From: Salinibacter grassmerensis
GTDB lineage: Bacteria > Bacteroidota > Rhodothermia > Rhodothermales > Salinibacteraceae
Assembly (NCBI RefSeq): GCF_947077765.1
Contig: NZ_CAMTTF010000001.1
Span: 966,818-1,030,817 of the forward strand
Direction: 5' to 3'
Length of the DNA stretch: 64,000 nt
Part shown: piece after piece, positions 48,027 through 51,876 of the stretch
Numbering within the stretch: the first letter of the stretch is position 1
How the letters are laid out: each line of letters opens with the position of its first letter
Notes under the pieces: generated by a model
What the model saw: the letters and a program-made list of their open reading frames with translations, nothing else
Told to the model about the DNA's origin: nothing
Database searches by the model: none
Made by a program: the position numbers and the translations under genes

Positions 48027-48364
48027 TGTGGAAAGCGCGTTCGTTCAACGGATTCTCACGTAGACCACCGCCAAGACCGAAGTGCGTTCCGGCCGCCGGG
48101 GGACGAGGGATATACCGTCGGGTGGGGGCTTGACGGCGGGCCGTCTCATCCGTAGCGTCTACACCAGGAGGCCCGAACAGTTACCCTGCACGGACGAATG
48201 TGTACCCTGCGCCCCCTGCGGGAAGTGGGGCCCGGAGCGAGTGCCGGACCAAAATGTCGGCGTCTCGTCCTGGTCGATCGTGAAAACTTTTTATAGAGTC
48301 TCTCGTGCTAGTCCCTGCGATCTCGAAGCCGCTGCGTTCACGATCCTCACCGTCCTCTGCTCCA
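48027..48364. other. 338-base divergent intergenic region
   Basis: The gap separates the GATase (minus) from the Omp85 barrel gene (plus). A TATAGA at 48292-48297 might be a -10 element for the barrel gene, about 70 bases before its ATG, but no good -35 is at the right distance. Otherwise I see nothing in it. Confidence 0.4.
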
Positions 48365-49762
48365 ATGACCGGTCCAGGCCGCAGGTCCATTGGTCGCGTC
48401 GCTGCCTTCGGGGCTGCATGTGCGACCATCCTGGTCCTTTGGGCTTTGCCAACAGCAAAAGAAGCGCACGCCCAGCCGACATCGCAACCAACGGGGTCAG
48501 GGGCGATCGCCGACTCTTCATTGGACCGAAGGGCTGTGTATGATACCAGCCGGGCGGCTCGGTGGCGTAGTGTACGTCGCCAGAAGGCCCAGTCGATGGA
48601 AGAACACAGACCGACCTTCATGGAGCGGGCCGCGTCGTTCGTGGGCAGCTTCGGCGGCGCCGTTGTGCCCCACCGTCTGATTCTCGATGTGCCCCAGTTG
48701 GAGGTTGCCGACTTCCACCCGGTTTTTGGGGGGCTCGACGGAAATGCGGGAACGACGGCGGGGGTGCTCTACGAGCCGACGTTTTGGAAGGAGGAGCAGC
48801 GCCTCGCCGAGGCGGAGCTTCTTGGCAGCCTCCGTGAATATTACGGGACGGGGGCACGCTTCGGGGGCGTCTTCGAGCCCTATGTGGGGTACGCGTACGC
48901 TCGGTATCAGCACCGTCCCCGCGAGAGCTTTTACGGGGTCGGGGCCGACAGCCAGGTGGACACGGAGGCCGGCTTTCGATTGGATCAGGGAGTTGTGGGG
49001 GGGCTTCTGGGATGGTCGCCAAAGCCCAGTGCGCTCCTCGGCGGACATGTCTCGTACCAGGCAAATCGGTACGGGACAGGGCAAGGAGACCGCCCGACGG
49101 TGGCGGATCAGTTCGGGGCGACCCTTCCCGGTGTGAAGACCAACGTGGACTACCTAATGCTCGGCGCCTTCTTTGAGCTTGACGTCCGGGATACACCGTA
49201 CACCCGTGCCTTTGGACACCGGTTCGCCCCGACGGAACCCCGACTGCGAGGGGTATCGCTCGACGCGTCCCGTGGGTTCTATCTCGCCTCCGAGGTGACA
49301 CACAACTTCAGCATGCGGGGGCAGGATGTCGACTTCACCCGCCTCACCCTCGACGTGCGGGAGTTTATGCCGATTGGGAAGGAGCTGCTCCACGGCTTTT
49401 CCTTCCGCCAGTTTGCGTCGGTGACCCACTCGGGGGACGGGCGCGTTCCGTTCTATCGGTTGCAGTCCGTAGGGGGGGCACGATCCCTCCGAGGGTACCC
49501 ATCGGGGCGATTTCGGGATCGAAACGTGCTTCTGGCGAACGCGGAGGTTCGATGCCAGATCTGGCACTGGATCGACATGGCGGTCTTCGCCGACGCGGGG
49601 CATGTGTTTCGCAACATCGGGGACGTTGACGTTGCGGACCCACGCGTCGGATACGGCCTGGGTTTTCGGGTCAAGAACGAGGGGAAAACGTTGGGGCGCG
49701 TCGACGTAGCCCGGGGACGGGGAGGATGGGAGCTGCACCTTGACCTAGGCTCTCTCTTTTAG
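48365..49762 (+). CDS. POTRA-less Omp85/BamA-type beta-barrel
   Basis: The 465-residue protein has a signal peptide (about 1-35, ending AHAQP) and then an alternating beta pattern. It includes the Omp85 signature YRLQSVGGARSLRGYPSGRFRDRN near 378-400 and a terminal aromatic strand (GWELHLDLGSLF). There is no room for POTRA domains between the signal and the barrel, so it is of the N-terminal-domain-free Omp85 type found in Bacteroidota. The function of this type is not settled. ATG 48365 is chosen to give the signal peptide; an upstream start at 48305 is less likely. The gene immediately downstream (5 bases) encodes a secreted protein, suggesting a pair. Confidence 0.85.
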   Translation: MTGPGRRSIGRVAAFGAACATILVLWALPTAKEAHAQPTSQPTGSGAIADSSLDRRAVYDTSRAARWRSVRRQKAQSMEEHRPTFMERAASFVGSFGGAVVPHRLILDVPQLEVADFHPVFGGLDGNAGTTAGVLYEPTFWKEEQRLAEAELLGSLREYYGTGARFGGVFEPYVGYAYARYQHRPRESFYGVGADSQVDTEAGFRLDQGVVGGLLGWSPKPSALLGGHVSYQANRYGTGQGDRPTVADQFGATLPGVKTNVDYLMLGAFFELDVRDTPYTRAFGHRFAPTEPRLRGVSLDASRGFYLASEVTHNFSMRGQDVDFTRLTLDVREFMPIGKELLHGFSFRQFASVTHSGDGRVPFYRLQSVGGARSLRGYPSGRFRDRNVLLANAEVRCQIWHWIDMAVFADAGHVFRNIGDVDVADPRVGYGLGFRVKNEGKTLGRVDVARGRGGWELHLDLGSLF

Positions 49763-49767
49763 CTACC

Positions 49768-51441
49768 ATGTGCGTTGCGTTTCTCGGGTTGACTCGTGAG
49801 GTGCGGGTCCGGTACGCTGGAGGGGTGCTGTGCCTGTTGCTTCTTCTGGGCGGGAGCCCTTCGTCCGCAGTCGCGCAGCGGTTTCTCACCGACGACCCGC
49901 TGTGGCACGACCCTGATCGCATGGACATGCCCTTTCCGGAGCCCACCCCGTCGGACCACGGGATTGGGCCCCTGGAGTTTTTCGAGCGCAGCTTCGGCGT
50001 GCGGGGCGACTACGCCGTCCCGGCGACGAATGTCAATACGGTCGGAGGTGTCCCCAATTCGTCCTGGTACACCAACCGGCACTACCGATCCTCCATGTCG
50101 CGGGCGGCACTCCGCCGGGGCCCCAACCAAGAGCCGGGGCCGTCTTCCCGGTCCAGGTGGCGCGTGGTAGATTTGGGGGGAAACGGAGAGCTCCCACGTG
50201 CGACCATCCGGGACACTACGGGCCGGGCATTTCGGATTCTCTTTGATGCGCCCGCTCATCCGGAGATGGCGACCGGCGCCGCCATGATCAGCAGTCGTCT
50301 GCTGCACGCGCTCGGCTACAACGTGCCCCAGCATTGGCTGCGTCGCGTTCGAGTGGAGCGGTTGGTACCGGAGCCGGAAAGCGGCGTCACGCAGTCTCGT
50401 GTGGACAGCCTCCTCACGTCGGCCGCCCAGCGTCCGGACAGCACGTACCGGGTGCTCGCCACCCGAATTTCTAGTGTTGAGCGTCGCATCGGACCGTTTC
50501 AGTTTAAGGGAACCCGGGCGGACGACGGGAACGACGTGTTTCCCCACGAGGACCGACGGGAACTGCGGGGGCTTCGGGTCATCGCGGCGTGGATTCATCA
50601 CAGCAAGATTCGTCCCCGCCACACGCTTGATGTGGGAATGCGGGTGGAGGGACGCCGGTTTGTGCGACACTACCTGACGGATCTACACCTCACACTTGGC
50701 AGTGCAGGTGCGGCGCCGAAGTCGGAGTGGTCGGGACACGAGCACGTGCTTGAGCTGGGCCGCGTCTTTGAACGCATCGGAACGCTCGGGCTCAGCGGCG
50801 GAGACTGGGCGGAAATTGAGCCACCCAACAACCCGGCCGTCGGCCGCTTCGGCACTGGCGGATTCGATCCACGGGCGTGGCGCCCCGAGTGGCCCAACCT
50901 CGCGTTCCAGCGCACCACCCCCGCCGACGCGTTCTGGGCCGCGAAGAAGATCCGGAATTTCTCCTGCCAGGACCTGCGCGCCATCGTCTCCACGGCGGAT
51001 TACTCGTCGGCGGAGGTGGCCGACCACATGGTCCGGACCCTCCTCGCCCGACGGGACGCCATCGGACAGGCCTTTCTGGACTGGGGAGGTGGCCTGGATC
51101 GGTTTGCGGTCCGGTCCGGGCGTCTTGCCTTCAAGGACCTGCGGGCCGCCCATGGGCAAGCGCCCGATACCCTGCAGCGCACCGTCAAGTGGCGGGCGTA
51201 CGACAACCGCGCGGATGAAGTAAGCTCCGTTTTGGCTCGCACGACTTCAAGCCAGGAGGCGGTGCCGCTTCCCAACTACTCCCCGTCCCACCTTCGCGCC
51301 TCTCTGGTGACGCCCCGAGCGGGGACGACTCATGTCTTCGTGCGTCAGACCGAGCAGGGGCAAGCGTCGCCGGGCGGACGATTGCGTCGCCGGGTGGTCG
51401 GGGTCGACCGCACGGCCCCCTCTACGGCACAGAGGCCCTGA
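49768..51441 (+). CDS. Large secreted protein paired with Omp85 barrel
   Basis: The 557-residue protein has a signal peptide (LLLLLGGSPSSAVAQ, about 22-37). The mature part shows no family I can name with confidence. Features are a WRVVDLGGNGELPRATIRD segment, then GPFQFKGTRADDGNDVFPHEDRRELRGLRVIAAW, then a helix-rich half (AFWAAKKIRNFSCQDLRAIVST). The RRELRGLRV...AAW stretch recalls kinase-like CotH/HipA-type secreted proteins seen in other bacteria, but the catalytic loop is not recognisable here. It starts 5 bases after the barrel gene, so the two are almost certainly co-expressed. Confidence 0.72.
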   Translation: MCVAFLGLTREVRVRYAGGVLCLLLLLGGSPSSAVAQRFLTDDPLWHDPDRMDMPFPEPTPSDHGIGPLEFFERSFGVRGDYAVPATNVNTVGGVPNSSWYTNRHYRSSMSRAALRRGPNQEPGPSSRSRWRVVDLGGNGELPRATIRDTTGRAFRILFDAPAHPEMATGAAMISSRLLHALGYNVPQHWLRRVRVERLVPEPESGVTQSRVDSLLTSAAQRPDSTYRVLATRISSVERRIGPFQFKGTRADDGNDVFPHEDRRELRGLRVIAAWIHHSKIRPRHTLDVGMRVEGRRFVRHYLTDLHLTLGSAGAAPKSEWSGHEHVLELGRVFERIGTLGLSGGDWAEIEPPNNPAVGRFGTGGFDPRAWRPEWPNLAFQRTTPADAFWAAKKIRNFSCQDLRAIVSTADYSSAEVADHMVRTLLARRDAIGQAFLDWGGGLDRFAVRSGRLAFKDLRAAHGQAPDTLQRTVKWRAYDNRADEVSSVLARTTSSQEAVPLPNYSPSHLRASLVTPRAGTTHVFVRQTEQGQASPGGRLRRRVVGVDRTAPSTAQRP

Positions 51442-51496
51442 GTTGGACCTACACAGCACAGATTGAGAGGAGAATAGCTCCGAATGGACGTGAAAG

Positions 51497-51525
51497 TTGA
51501 ATTTCTCCCTACGACGTGCCATAAT
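51497..51525 (+). promoter_or_regulatory. Sigma-70-like promoter for small lipoprotein gene
   Basis: TTGAAT (51497-51502) and CATAAT (51520-51525) have exact 17-base spacing in an AT-rich gap, 39 bases before the start at 51565. With the efp promoter, this suggests that canonical -35/-10 elements are used here. Confidence 0.6.
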
Positions 51526-51564
51526 AATGGCAGTTTTCCTCTCCAAACAAAAGTGCCCAATGTT

Positions 51565-51876
51565 ATGTCACTATCGAAGGTATGGGTTGTACTCGTCCTG
51601 TTTCTCGTCGTAGGATGTGGAAGTGCGGAAGACTCGCCGATGGACACCAACGCCTACAACGGAACGATTGCTGAGATAAACGCCGAAGAGCGCAAGGTCC
51701 ACGTCGAAGTGCCGGACGAAGGGACCATGGAGTTCGCCTTCACAGACACGACGCAGGTGCTGAAAAACTTTCTAGAGGTGCCTTTCGACTCCCTGGATAC
51801 CAACCGAAAGGTGCGTGTCGAGGTCGTGGAGACTGGAGATCAGCCGACCCCGACGACGGTCACTCTGATCGAGTAA
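51565..51876 (+). CDS. Predicted small lipoprotein
   Basis: The 103-residue protein has a signal ending LFLVVGCGSAED (lipobox Cys18). Its mature domain (GTIAEINAEERKVHVEVPDEG...DTTQVLKNFLEV, then KVRVEVVETG) looks like a single OB-like or beta-barrel domain that binds a small ligand or metal; YNGTIAEIN and the VRVEV repeats recall small periplasmic carrier domains. No family name can be given. A good promoter precedes it. Confidence 0.78.
   Translation: MSLSKVWVVLVLFLVVGCGSAEDSPMDTNAYNGTIAEINAEERKVHVEVPDEGTMEFAFTDTTQVLKNFLEVPFDSLDTNRKVRVEVVETGDQPTPTTVTLIE

Follow-up and report, generated by a model that had tools for sequence, protein, structure and literature searches.

A gene pair that encodes an outer membrane barrel and an exported protein with a predicted kinase fold was analyzed in a 64,000-nucleotide stretch of the Salinibacter grassmerensis genome (contig NZ_CAMTTF010000001.1, positions 966,818 to 1,030,817), here called the window and numbered from its first letter. 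The pair is widespread and present at every locus with sufficient upstream sequence, and the relatives of the kinase-fold partner that lie outside the clade of the window copy are tied to ATP/ADP transporters of the TLC type. On balance, barrel and partner probably constitute one functional unit, an envelope phosphorylation module, in which the kinase would be noncatalytic in the lineage of the window.

The barrel gene (positions 48365 to 49762; all window features described here are on the forward strand) encodes a protein of 465 amino acids (aa) with an N-terminal signal peptide recognized by eye. Its open reading frame (ORF) is open from a GTG at 48305, and the ATG at 48365 is the likely start. 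The C-terminal part of the protein matches the Omp85 family (PF01103) at 56 bits (cut-off, 24), and a Pfam scan at an E value of ≤1 found no POTRA families in it; the match to NF047779 (Omp85_fam), at 85.8 bits, falls below the cut-off of that model, 200. The protein thus has the C-terminal barrel domain of the Omp85 superfamily and lacks the N-terminal POTRA domain(s) of the BamA, TamA, and FhaC types. In a sample of 33 barrels, consisting of the window barrel and 32 from other loci, an Omp85 match was found in all 33 and a POTRA match in none at an E value of ≤0.1. Barrel lengths range from 332 to 505 aa (n = 67, with starts chosen by the authors). Five bases (49763 to 49767) separate the barrel gene from the partner gene, which runs from the ATG at 49768 to 51441 and encodes 557 aa. 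The partner, a predicted pseudokinase of the HipA/Fam20C type, comprises a predicted signal peptide (residues 1 to 36, positions 49768 to 49875; a hydrophobic stretch ending in SSAVAQ, assigned by eye, with a helix at residues 8 to 28 of the structural model), the predicted kinase fold (residues ∼123 to 443, positions 50134 to 51096), and a C-terminal domain that is mostly β in the secondary structure of the model (residues ∼443 to 549, positions 51094 to 51414). The initial annotation had placed both genes at these coordinates, with the same gap, and had described the first as a barrel with the C-terminal Omp85 signature but no POTRA domains; both points are borne out.

Searches with the partner alone found its family in 26 of the 60 related genomes, including that of the window, which contains a single match in total. 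In these genomes, the partner forms two subfamilies, one window-like and one denoted clade B. The family was further confirmed in 243 stretches from a collection with one genome per species; the analysis retained the best 80 of these, and eight phyla appear in their record titles (Bacteroidetes, Acidobacteria, Poribacteria, Zixibacteria, KSB1, Marinimicrobia, Calditrichota, and Latescibacterota). At 98 of the 101 distinct loci, the gene immediately upstream, in the same orientation, encodes a barrel, as detected with a profile built from the window barrel; at the remaining three, the contig ends upstream, leaving zero or ∼0.3 kb of sequence. The family match begins a median of 22.5 bases after the stop of the barrel gene and within 300 bases of it in 96 of the 98 loci; in an outlier at 1,582 bases, two kinase genes follow a single barrel gene, and the distance is that to the second of them. 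Because the loci were collected by the partner alone, the pairing was not built into the sampling, and a local accident was rejected as its explanation. Furthermore, the trees of barrels and partners agree (r = 0.70 for 86 pairs, compared with a maximum of 0.09 in 100 shuffles; the 86 of 101 loci compared have one barrel and one partner each, of sufficient length). In both trees, the pseudokinase pairs described below and the clade-B pairs are each split off by one change; therefore, there is no sign of partner swapping between pair types within one genome. The tight linkage had initially been read as a sign that the two proteins work together, a view that nonconservation of the pair would have undermined: the pair is conserved, and physical joint action is what this conservation suggests. 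Variants of the arrangement include two barrel-kinase pairs in tandem (L093, Acidobacteria) and one barrel followed by two kinase-fold genes (L104, Acidobacteria). One pair, on a contig labeled as a Haloarculaceae archaeon (L075), groups with Rhodothermota sequences, and the archaeal label is probably a binning error.

The known sequence families miss the partner. No Pfam or NCBIfam matches to the window protein were found at an E value of ≤1, and phmmer and profile searches of Protein Data Bank (PDB) sequences found no credible relatives. Among 66 members of the family, HipA_2 is weakly matched by 17 and HipA_C by 3 at an E value of ≤0.1 (best E values, 7.9e-4 and 0.006, respectively), and CotH is absent from the Pfam matches at this threshold. 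The window protein matches neither HipA family, and the other members should all score below the curated cut-offs, judging from an E value of 0.095 that corresponded to a score of 12.4 bits, where the cut-off is 27. Membership in the HipA and CotH families was accordingly rejected on sequence.

An AlphaFold2 model of the window partner, built from a 66-sequence alignment, has a mean predicted local distance difference test (pLDDT) score of 92.3 and a predicted template modeling (pTM) score of 0.91. When this model was compared with solved structures by Foldseek, the top matches were kinases (best E value, 2.9e-3, for CtkA). A second structural aligner gave Z scores of 14.1 for CtkA (root mean square deviation of 4.2 over 235 residues), 13.2 for Fam20C, 12.0 for Fam20A, 11.9 for PI4KII-alpha, and 10.7 for HipT, where the typical best score of models without a clear match is 7 to 8 but reaches 14 for five mostly helical ones; the CtkA and Fam20C alignments span 235 to 259 residues. 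A model of an intact relative from Edaphobacter aggregans DSM 19364 (L122; pLDDT, 93.5) matched a Golgi casein kinase of the Fam20 type in Foldseek (E value, 4.3e-5) and scored 14.6 against CtkA, 13.4 against Fam20C, and 12.1 against CotH in the aligner. A search of a viral structure library returned three matches at an E value of ≤0.001 (best, 8.7e-6), with many viral protein kinases further down. In a single profile comparison with HipA_2 (probability, 59%; E value, 9e-5), positions 158, 172, 280, 285, and 305 of the partner fall on Lys, Glu, Asp, Asn, and Asp, respectively; the HipA_2 set consists of 15 loci with the longest frame picked by script, of which at least L156 and L167 look wrong, such that the register rests mainly on L154. 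By these models, the partner has a HipA/Fam20C-type kinase fold. The initial annotation had called the protein one of no recognizable family and of unknown fold and had proposed structure prediction as a check for a CotH/HipA-type kinase: the first description holds for sequence families and fails for the fold, which is predicted to be of the HipA/Fam20C/CotH kind.

Most members of the family retain the residues expected of an active kinase. In the 66-sequence alignment, the β3 Lys at residue 158 is present in 57 sequences, the αC Glu at residue 172 in 52 (Asp in 6), the catalytic-loop Asp280 in 57 and Asn285 in 58, and the DFG motif at residues 305 to 307 in 62, 57, and 54 for Asp, Phe, and Gly, respectively. 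The window protein has Leu at residue 158 (positions 50239 to 50241), Ala at 172 (50281 to 50283), Lys at 280 (50605 to 50607), His at 285 (50620 to 50622), and Asp-Leu-His at 305 to 307 (50680 to 50688), so that only Asp305 is kept among the five catalytic sites. Across 99 distinct relatives (the rows of a quick tree, from 116 hits minus duplicates and short pieces), Lys158, Asp280, Asn285, and Asp305 are all kept in 82, one is changed in 4, and two or more are lost in 13, with the catalytic states assigned from one MAFFT alignment. Twelve of these 13, including the window protein, form one clade (support of 100 in the Shimodaira-Hasegawa-like approximate likelihood ratio test), here called the pseudokinase clade, within which the lost Lys, Glu, Asp, and Asn sites vary. 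The thirteenth, from an Acidobacteriota bin (L142), lies outside this Salinibacter-like clade and has lost the Lys and the catalytic Asp. Its frame (L142:5929-9408) extends ∼600 codons beyond the family match, possibly through a fusion or a missed stop. Because the pseudokinase clade joins intact members on the tree, which is midpoint rooted with no root inferred, loss of the catalytic residues is the simplest reading.

The window partner is nonetheless under purifying selection. The ratio of nonsynonymous to synonymous substitution rates (dN/dS) is 0.12 to 0.25 for the pseudokinases and 0.07 to 0.21 for their barrels (counting method; ten pairs each from eight loci, with larger dS values saturated). 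A strongly conserved stretch of the partner, DDxNDxxPHExRRELRG, is kept in the pseudokinases, too. A decaying pseudogene was considered and rejected, given these dN/dS values and the absence of stops in the 12 genomes of the clade. The window protein is thus a predicted pseudokinase that has probably lost phosphotransfer and retained a function, because the catalytic residues are gone while other conserved stretches and purifying selection remain.

The association of the family with TLC-type transporters came from looking at the gene neighborhoods, not from a prediction. A membrane protein is encoded directly downstream of all 13 clade-B loci (L056 to L068) and some others, and all eight such neighbors tested exceed the cut-off of the TLC ATP/ADP transporter family (PF03219), two of them with additional HEAT repeats. 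Among loci with at least 1.9 kb of downstream sequence, 24 of the 71 outside the pseudokinase clade have a same-strand TLC gene no more than 1.5 kb downstream, versus none of the 12 inside it; anywhere in the fetched stretch, the counts are 34 of 71 and 0 of 12. Two TLC frames, a short one and then a long one, follow the kinase in tandem at L052, L061, L128, L139, and L145; elsewhere, the frames tested from L054 and L062 are the long ones, and both carry the HEAT repeats.

The same association is evident at the level of whole genomes. Among the 60 related genomes, TLC was found in 16 of the 20 with a copy outside the pseudokinase clade (two of these 20, G017 and G045, have fragments with the active site out of view, and the copy in G031 has Glu for Asp305), in none of the 6 with pseudokinase copies only, and in 2 of the 34 without the family. 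The genome of the window, which is 99.7% complete, is one of the six pseudokinase-only genomes, and no TLC gene was found in it. With kin genomes treated as independent, the one-sided Fisher test gives P values of 4e-9 for 16 of 20 against all other related genomes and 9e-4 against the pseudokinase-only genomes. When only related genomes that are at least 90% complete are considered, TLC is present in 11 of 11 with a copy outside the pseudokinase clade versus 0 of 4 with pseudokinases only. In other groups, TLC was found in all 24 genomes picked by the authors from the best-80 loci (one of which, L082, has Glu for Lys158); 12 of these had TLC already in the fetched stretch, which leaves 12 of 12 as the new result. 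None of 14 well-known control genomes has TLC. Finally, in 149 Acidobacteriota genomes, where kinase copies were counted by presence and irrespective of their catalytic residues, TLC was found in 24 of 27 kinase-bearing versus 20 of 122 kinase-free genomes (P = 9.5e-13), or in 20 of 23 versus 20 of 122 when four genomes in which both genes were known beforehand (G107, G109, G116, and G120) are left out (P = 8e-11). Shared ancestry within one order was rejected as the source of the transporter link, which recurs in other phyla; kinship within each set remains.

Phosphatase genes are also found near some of the pairs, none of them pseudokinase pairs. Calcineurin-like phosphoesterase genes are present at 14 of 101 loci within the stretch fetched (Pfam-confirmed as PF00149 for 5 of the 14), and PAP2 phosphatases near the pair in 8 of 101 (L060, L063, L064, L067, L124, L135, L139, and L141; Pfam-confirmed for L139 and L141). 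The PAP2 neighbors may point to a substrate that is a lipid or is linked to one. Neighbors were clustered by single linkage, with many clusters of shadow frames, and the transporter, phosphoesterase, and PAP2 clusters were taken further. Some Acidobacteria loci also have histidine kinase and BON-domain neighbors.

An envelope phosphorylation module is the picture best supported by these findings, because a Fam20C-type kinase exported to the periplasm needs a source of ATP there and characterized TLC proteins exchange ATP for ADP. The periplasm is considered to lack ATP. In the proposed mechanism, the partner would bind the POTRA-less Omp85 barrel, most likely from the periplasmic side, and an inner membrane TLC antiporter would swap cytoplasmic ATP for ADP, exporting ATP. 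In most of the family, a working kinase would then act on an envelope substrate, phosphorylating it next to the barrel or through it, and the phosphatases encoded nearby in some genomes could reverse the reaction. In the lineage of the window, with catalysis gone and no TLC gene found in the genome, the partner would no longer transfer phosphate and would instead serve the barrel as a scaffold, plug, or gate. Because the pair has been kept despite the loss of catalysis, the window partner probably acts by binding, that is, by holding, plugging, or gating the barrel, somewhat akin to Fam20A, a pseudokinase that exerts its effect by way of Fam20C and not as a catalyst. Six genomes (G004, G006, G010, G016, G018, and G022) carry both a pseudokinase pair and an intact pair, and there the pseudokinase possibly regulates the intact pair; in the genome of the window, such regulation cannot be the whole story. 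The generalization that, in many diderms, a TLC antiporter feeds periplasmic ATP to a HipA/Fam20C-like kinase that sits on an Omp85 barrel of the POTRA-less type, accompanied in some genomes by phosphatases, is plausible rather than probable; it would explain TLC proteins in free-living bacteria and would have the pseudokinase of the Salinibacter lineage gate or scaffold the barrel, with the pseudokinase-only genomes lacking the ATP supply.

Several observations weigh against an envelope phosphorylation module. The pairing, the fold, the loss of residues, the purifying selection, and the co-occurrence with transporters are computed results; binding to the barrel, the periplasmic side, ATP export, the activity of the relatives, and the role of the pseudokinase are all steps that we infer. 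At the level of the fold, Foldseek found no match to the window model at an E value of ≤0.001, no kinase turned up in the profile search of PDB sequences, and the profile comparison with HipA_C reached a probability of only 19%, with the catalytic loop unaligned. The TLC gene is nonadjacent in 47 of the 71 loci outside the pseudokinase clade. No TLC was found in 4 of the 20 related genomes with a nonpseudokinase copy, all four less than 85% complete, and 2 of the 6 pseudokinase-only genomes are just 83% complete. Conversely, TLC occurs in the 2 related genomes without the kinase family mentioned above and in the 20 kinase-free Acidobacteriota genomes (19 of them over the cut-off), and it was not found in 3 of the 27 kinase-bearing Acidobacteriota. 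The treatment of kin genomes as independent overstates the significance of all the TLC P values. Furthermore, the TLC proteins characterized so far are those of parasites and organelles, and they function in nucleotide uptake (PMC5381601); export is assumed here.

Other explanations of the pair were weighed against this module. The one that survives best, although unlikely, is two-partner secretion, in which the barrel would translocate the kinase-fold protein to the cell surface and the kinase would act outside the cell. FhaC exports its adhesin in this manner, its POTRA domains receiving the substrate. The Omp85 fold and the gene order fit such a pathway, and 4 of the 33 sampled barrels also match the ShlB/FhaC family PF03865 (best E value, 1.1e-6). 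However, the barrel lacks POTRA, the substrate receiver of that pathway, and the partner is a compact predicted kinase fold rather than a β-helix, so neither of the two hallmarks of these systems is present; furthermore, clade-B partners bear a Cys at a lipobox-like site, which suggests anchoring in a membrane. A role in outer membrane assembly, with the barrel as an auxiliary insertase or lipid-handling Omp85, the partner replacing POTRA as a periplasmic helper, and ATP use secondary or absent, appears less likely still. A function in the biogenesis of membrane proteins has been suggested for Omp85 proteins that lack an N-terminal extension (PMC4104836), and the DDxNDxxPHExRRELRG stretch is kept even in pseudokinases, but this explanation leaves the conserved kinase residues and the co-occurrence with ATP/ADP transporters unaccounted for. 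Nucleotide scavenging is improbable; in this scenario, nucleotides would enter through the barrel, be processed in the periplasm by phosphatases and the kinase-fold protein, and be imported by TLC. Nucleotide uptake is what characterized TLC proteins do (PMC5381601), and phosphoesterase genes are found near the 14 loci noted above, but uptake does not need the conserved Asp and Asn of the catalytic loop or the Asp of the DFG motif. That the window clade has kept another chemistry, AMP transfer or glutamylation as in SelO or SidJ, is very improbable, since the clade has lost the Lys, Glu, Asp, and Asn residues, with variation at these sites among its members, and no TLC gene was found in the six genomes with this clade only, even though some pseudokinases, such as SidJ, are enzymes (PMC6858067).

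Further features of the locus concern the barrel and its surroundings. A short Arg/Lys-rich segment, TSRAARWRSVRRQK (positions 48545 to 48586), lies between the signal peptide and the barrel; by eye, a stretch resembling it is present in most of the 33 aligned barrels and not in those of the KSB1, Zixibacteria, and Calditrichota types. Directly downstream of the pair, positions 51484 to 51876 encode a lipoprotein-like ORF of 130 aa, for which no Pfam match over the cut-off was found and whose homologs among the fetched loci are confined to the nearest relatives (L039 to L043 and their duplicates). The genome of the window encodes two more short Omp85 proteins (L151:3697-5046, 449 aa, and L152:3977-5275, 432 aa), both of a length that leaves little room for POTRA domains, and no kinase-fold neighbor of either is visible in the ORF lists.

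The components of the proposed module have known counterparts. Fam20C and Fam20A, kinases of the animal secretory pathway, resemble the family described here in being exported, with an atypical kinase fold, and in that a pseudokinase stands beside active-looking relatives; in contrast, this family is bacterial, shares 8 to 12% identity with them in structural alignments, has an Omp85 barrel partner, and carries a C-terminal β domain. The bacterial kinases HipA, HipT, CtkA, and CotH share the predicted fold, and the Lys, Glu, Asp, Asn, and Asp positions are in register with HipA_2 proteins; unlike them, the present family has a signal peptide or lipobox-like site and a barrel neighbor, and the window protein matches neither HipA_2 nor HipA_C. 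The barrels resemble the noNterm subfamily of Omp85 proteins, likewise barrels without an N-terminal extension (PMC4104836), a likeness of architecture, and no kinase-like partner is named in the part of that article covered here. The transporters next to the kinase genes match PF03219, as do the TLC/NTT proteins of free-living bacteria, and the two of eight with HEAT repeats parallel the NTT-HEAT fusions described for that group (PMC5381601). These proteins are uncharacterized in free-living bacteria, and the function of the HEAT fusions is unknown (PMC5381601); the connection to a kinase is drawn in the present analysis. From the text of a 2025 review of bacterial pseudokinases (PMC12599244), the terms Omp85, HipA, periplasm, lipoprotein, and outer membrane are absent. 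Among the matches listed for openly licensed PubMed Central articles, with subscription papers and preprints outside the scope, no paper joins the barrel, the kinase fold, and the transporter.

The barrel, the kinase fold, and the transporter are each of a known kind, and it is for their combination that no description was found among the matches listed. The window copy represents a natural conversion to a pseudokinase, in which the catalytic residues and the transporter are missing together, such that the coupling of the two can be tested by comparison. The proposed module also offers a testable answer to a published open question, the role of TLC/NTT proteins in free-living bacteria (PMC5381601). 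If the module exists, a periplasmic kinase with a matching ATP/ADP transporter would amount to a new envelope chemistry, comparable to the phosphorylation that takes place in the secretory pathway of animals.

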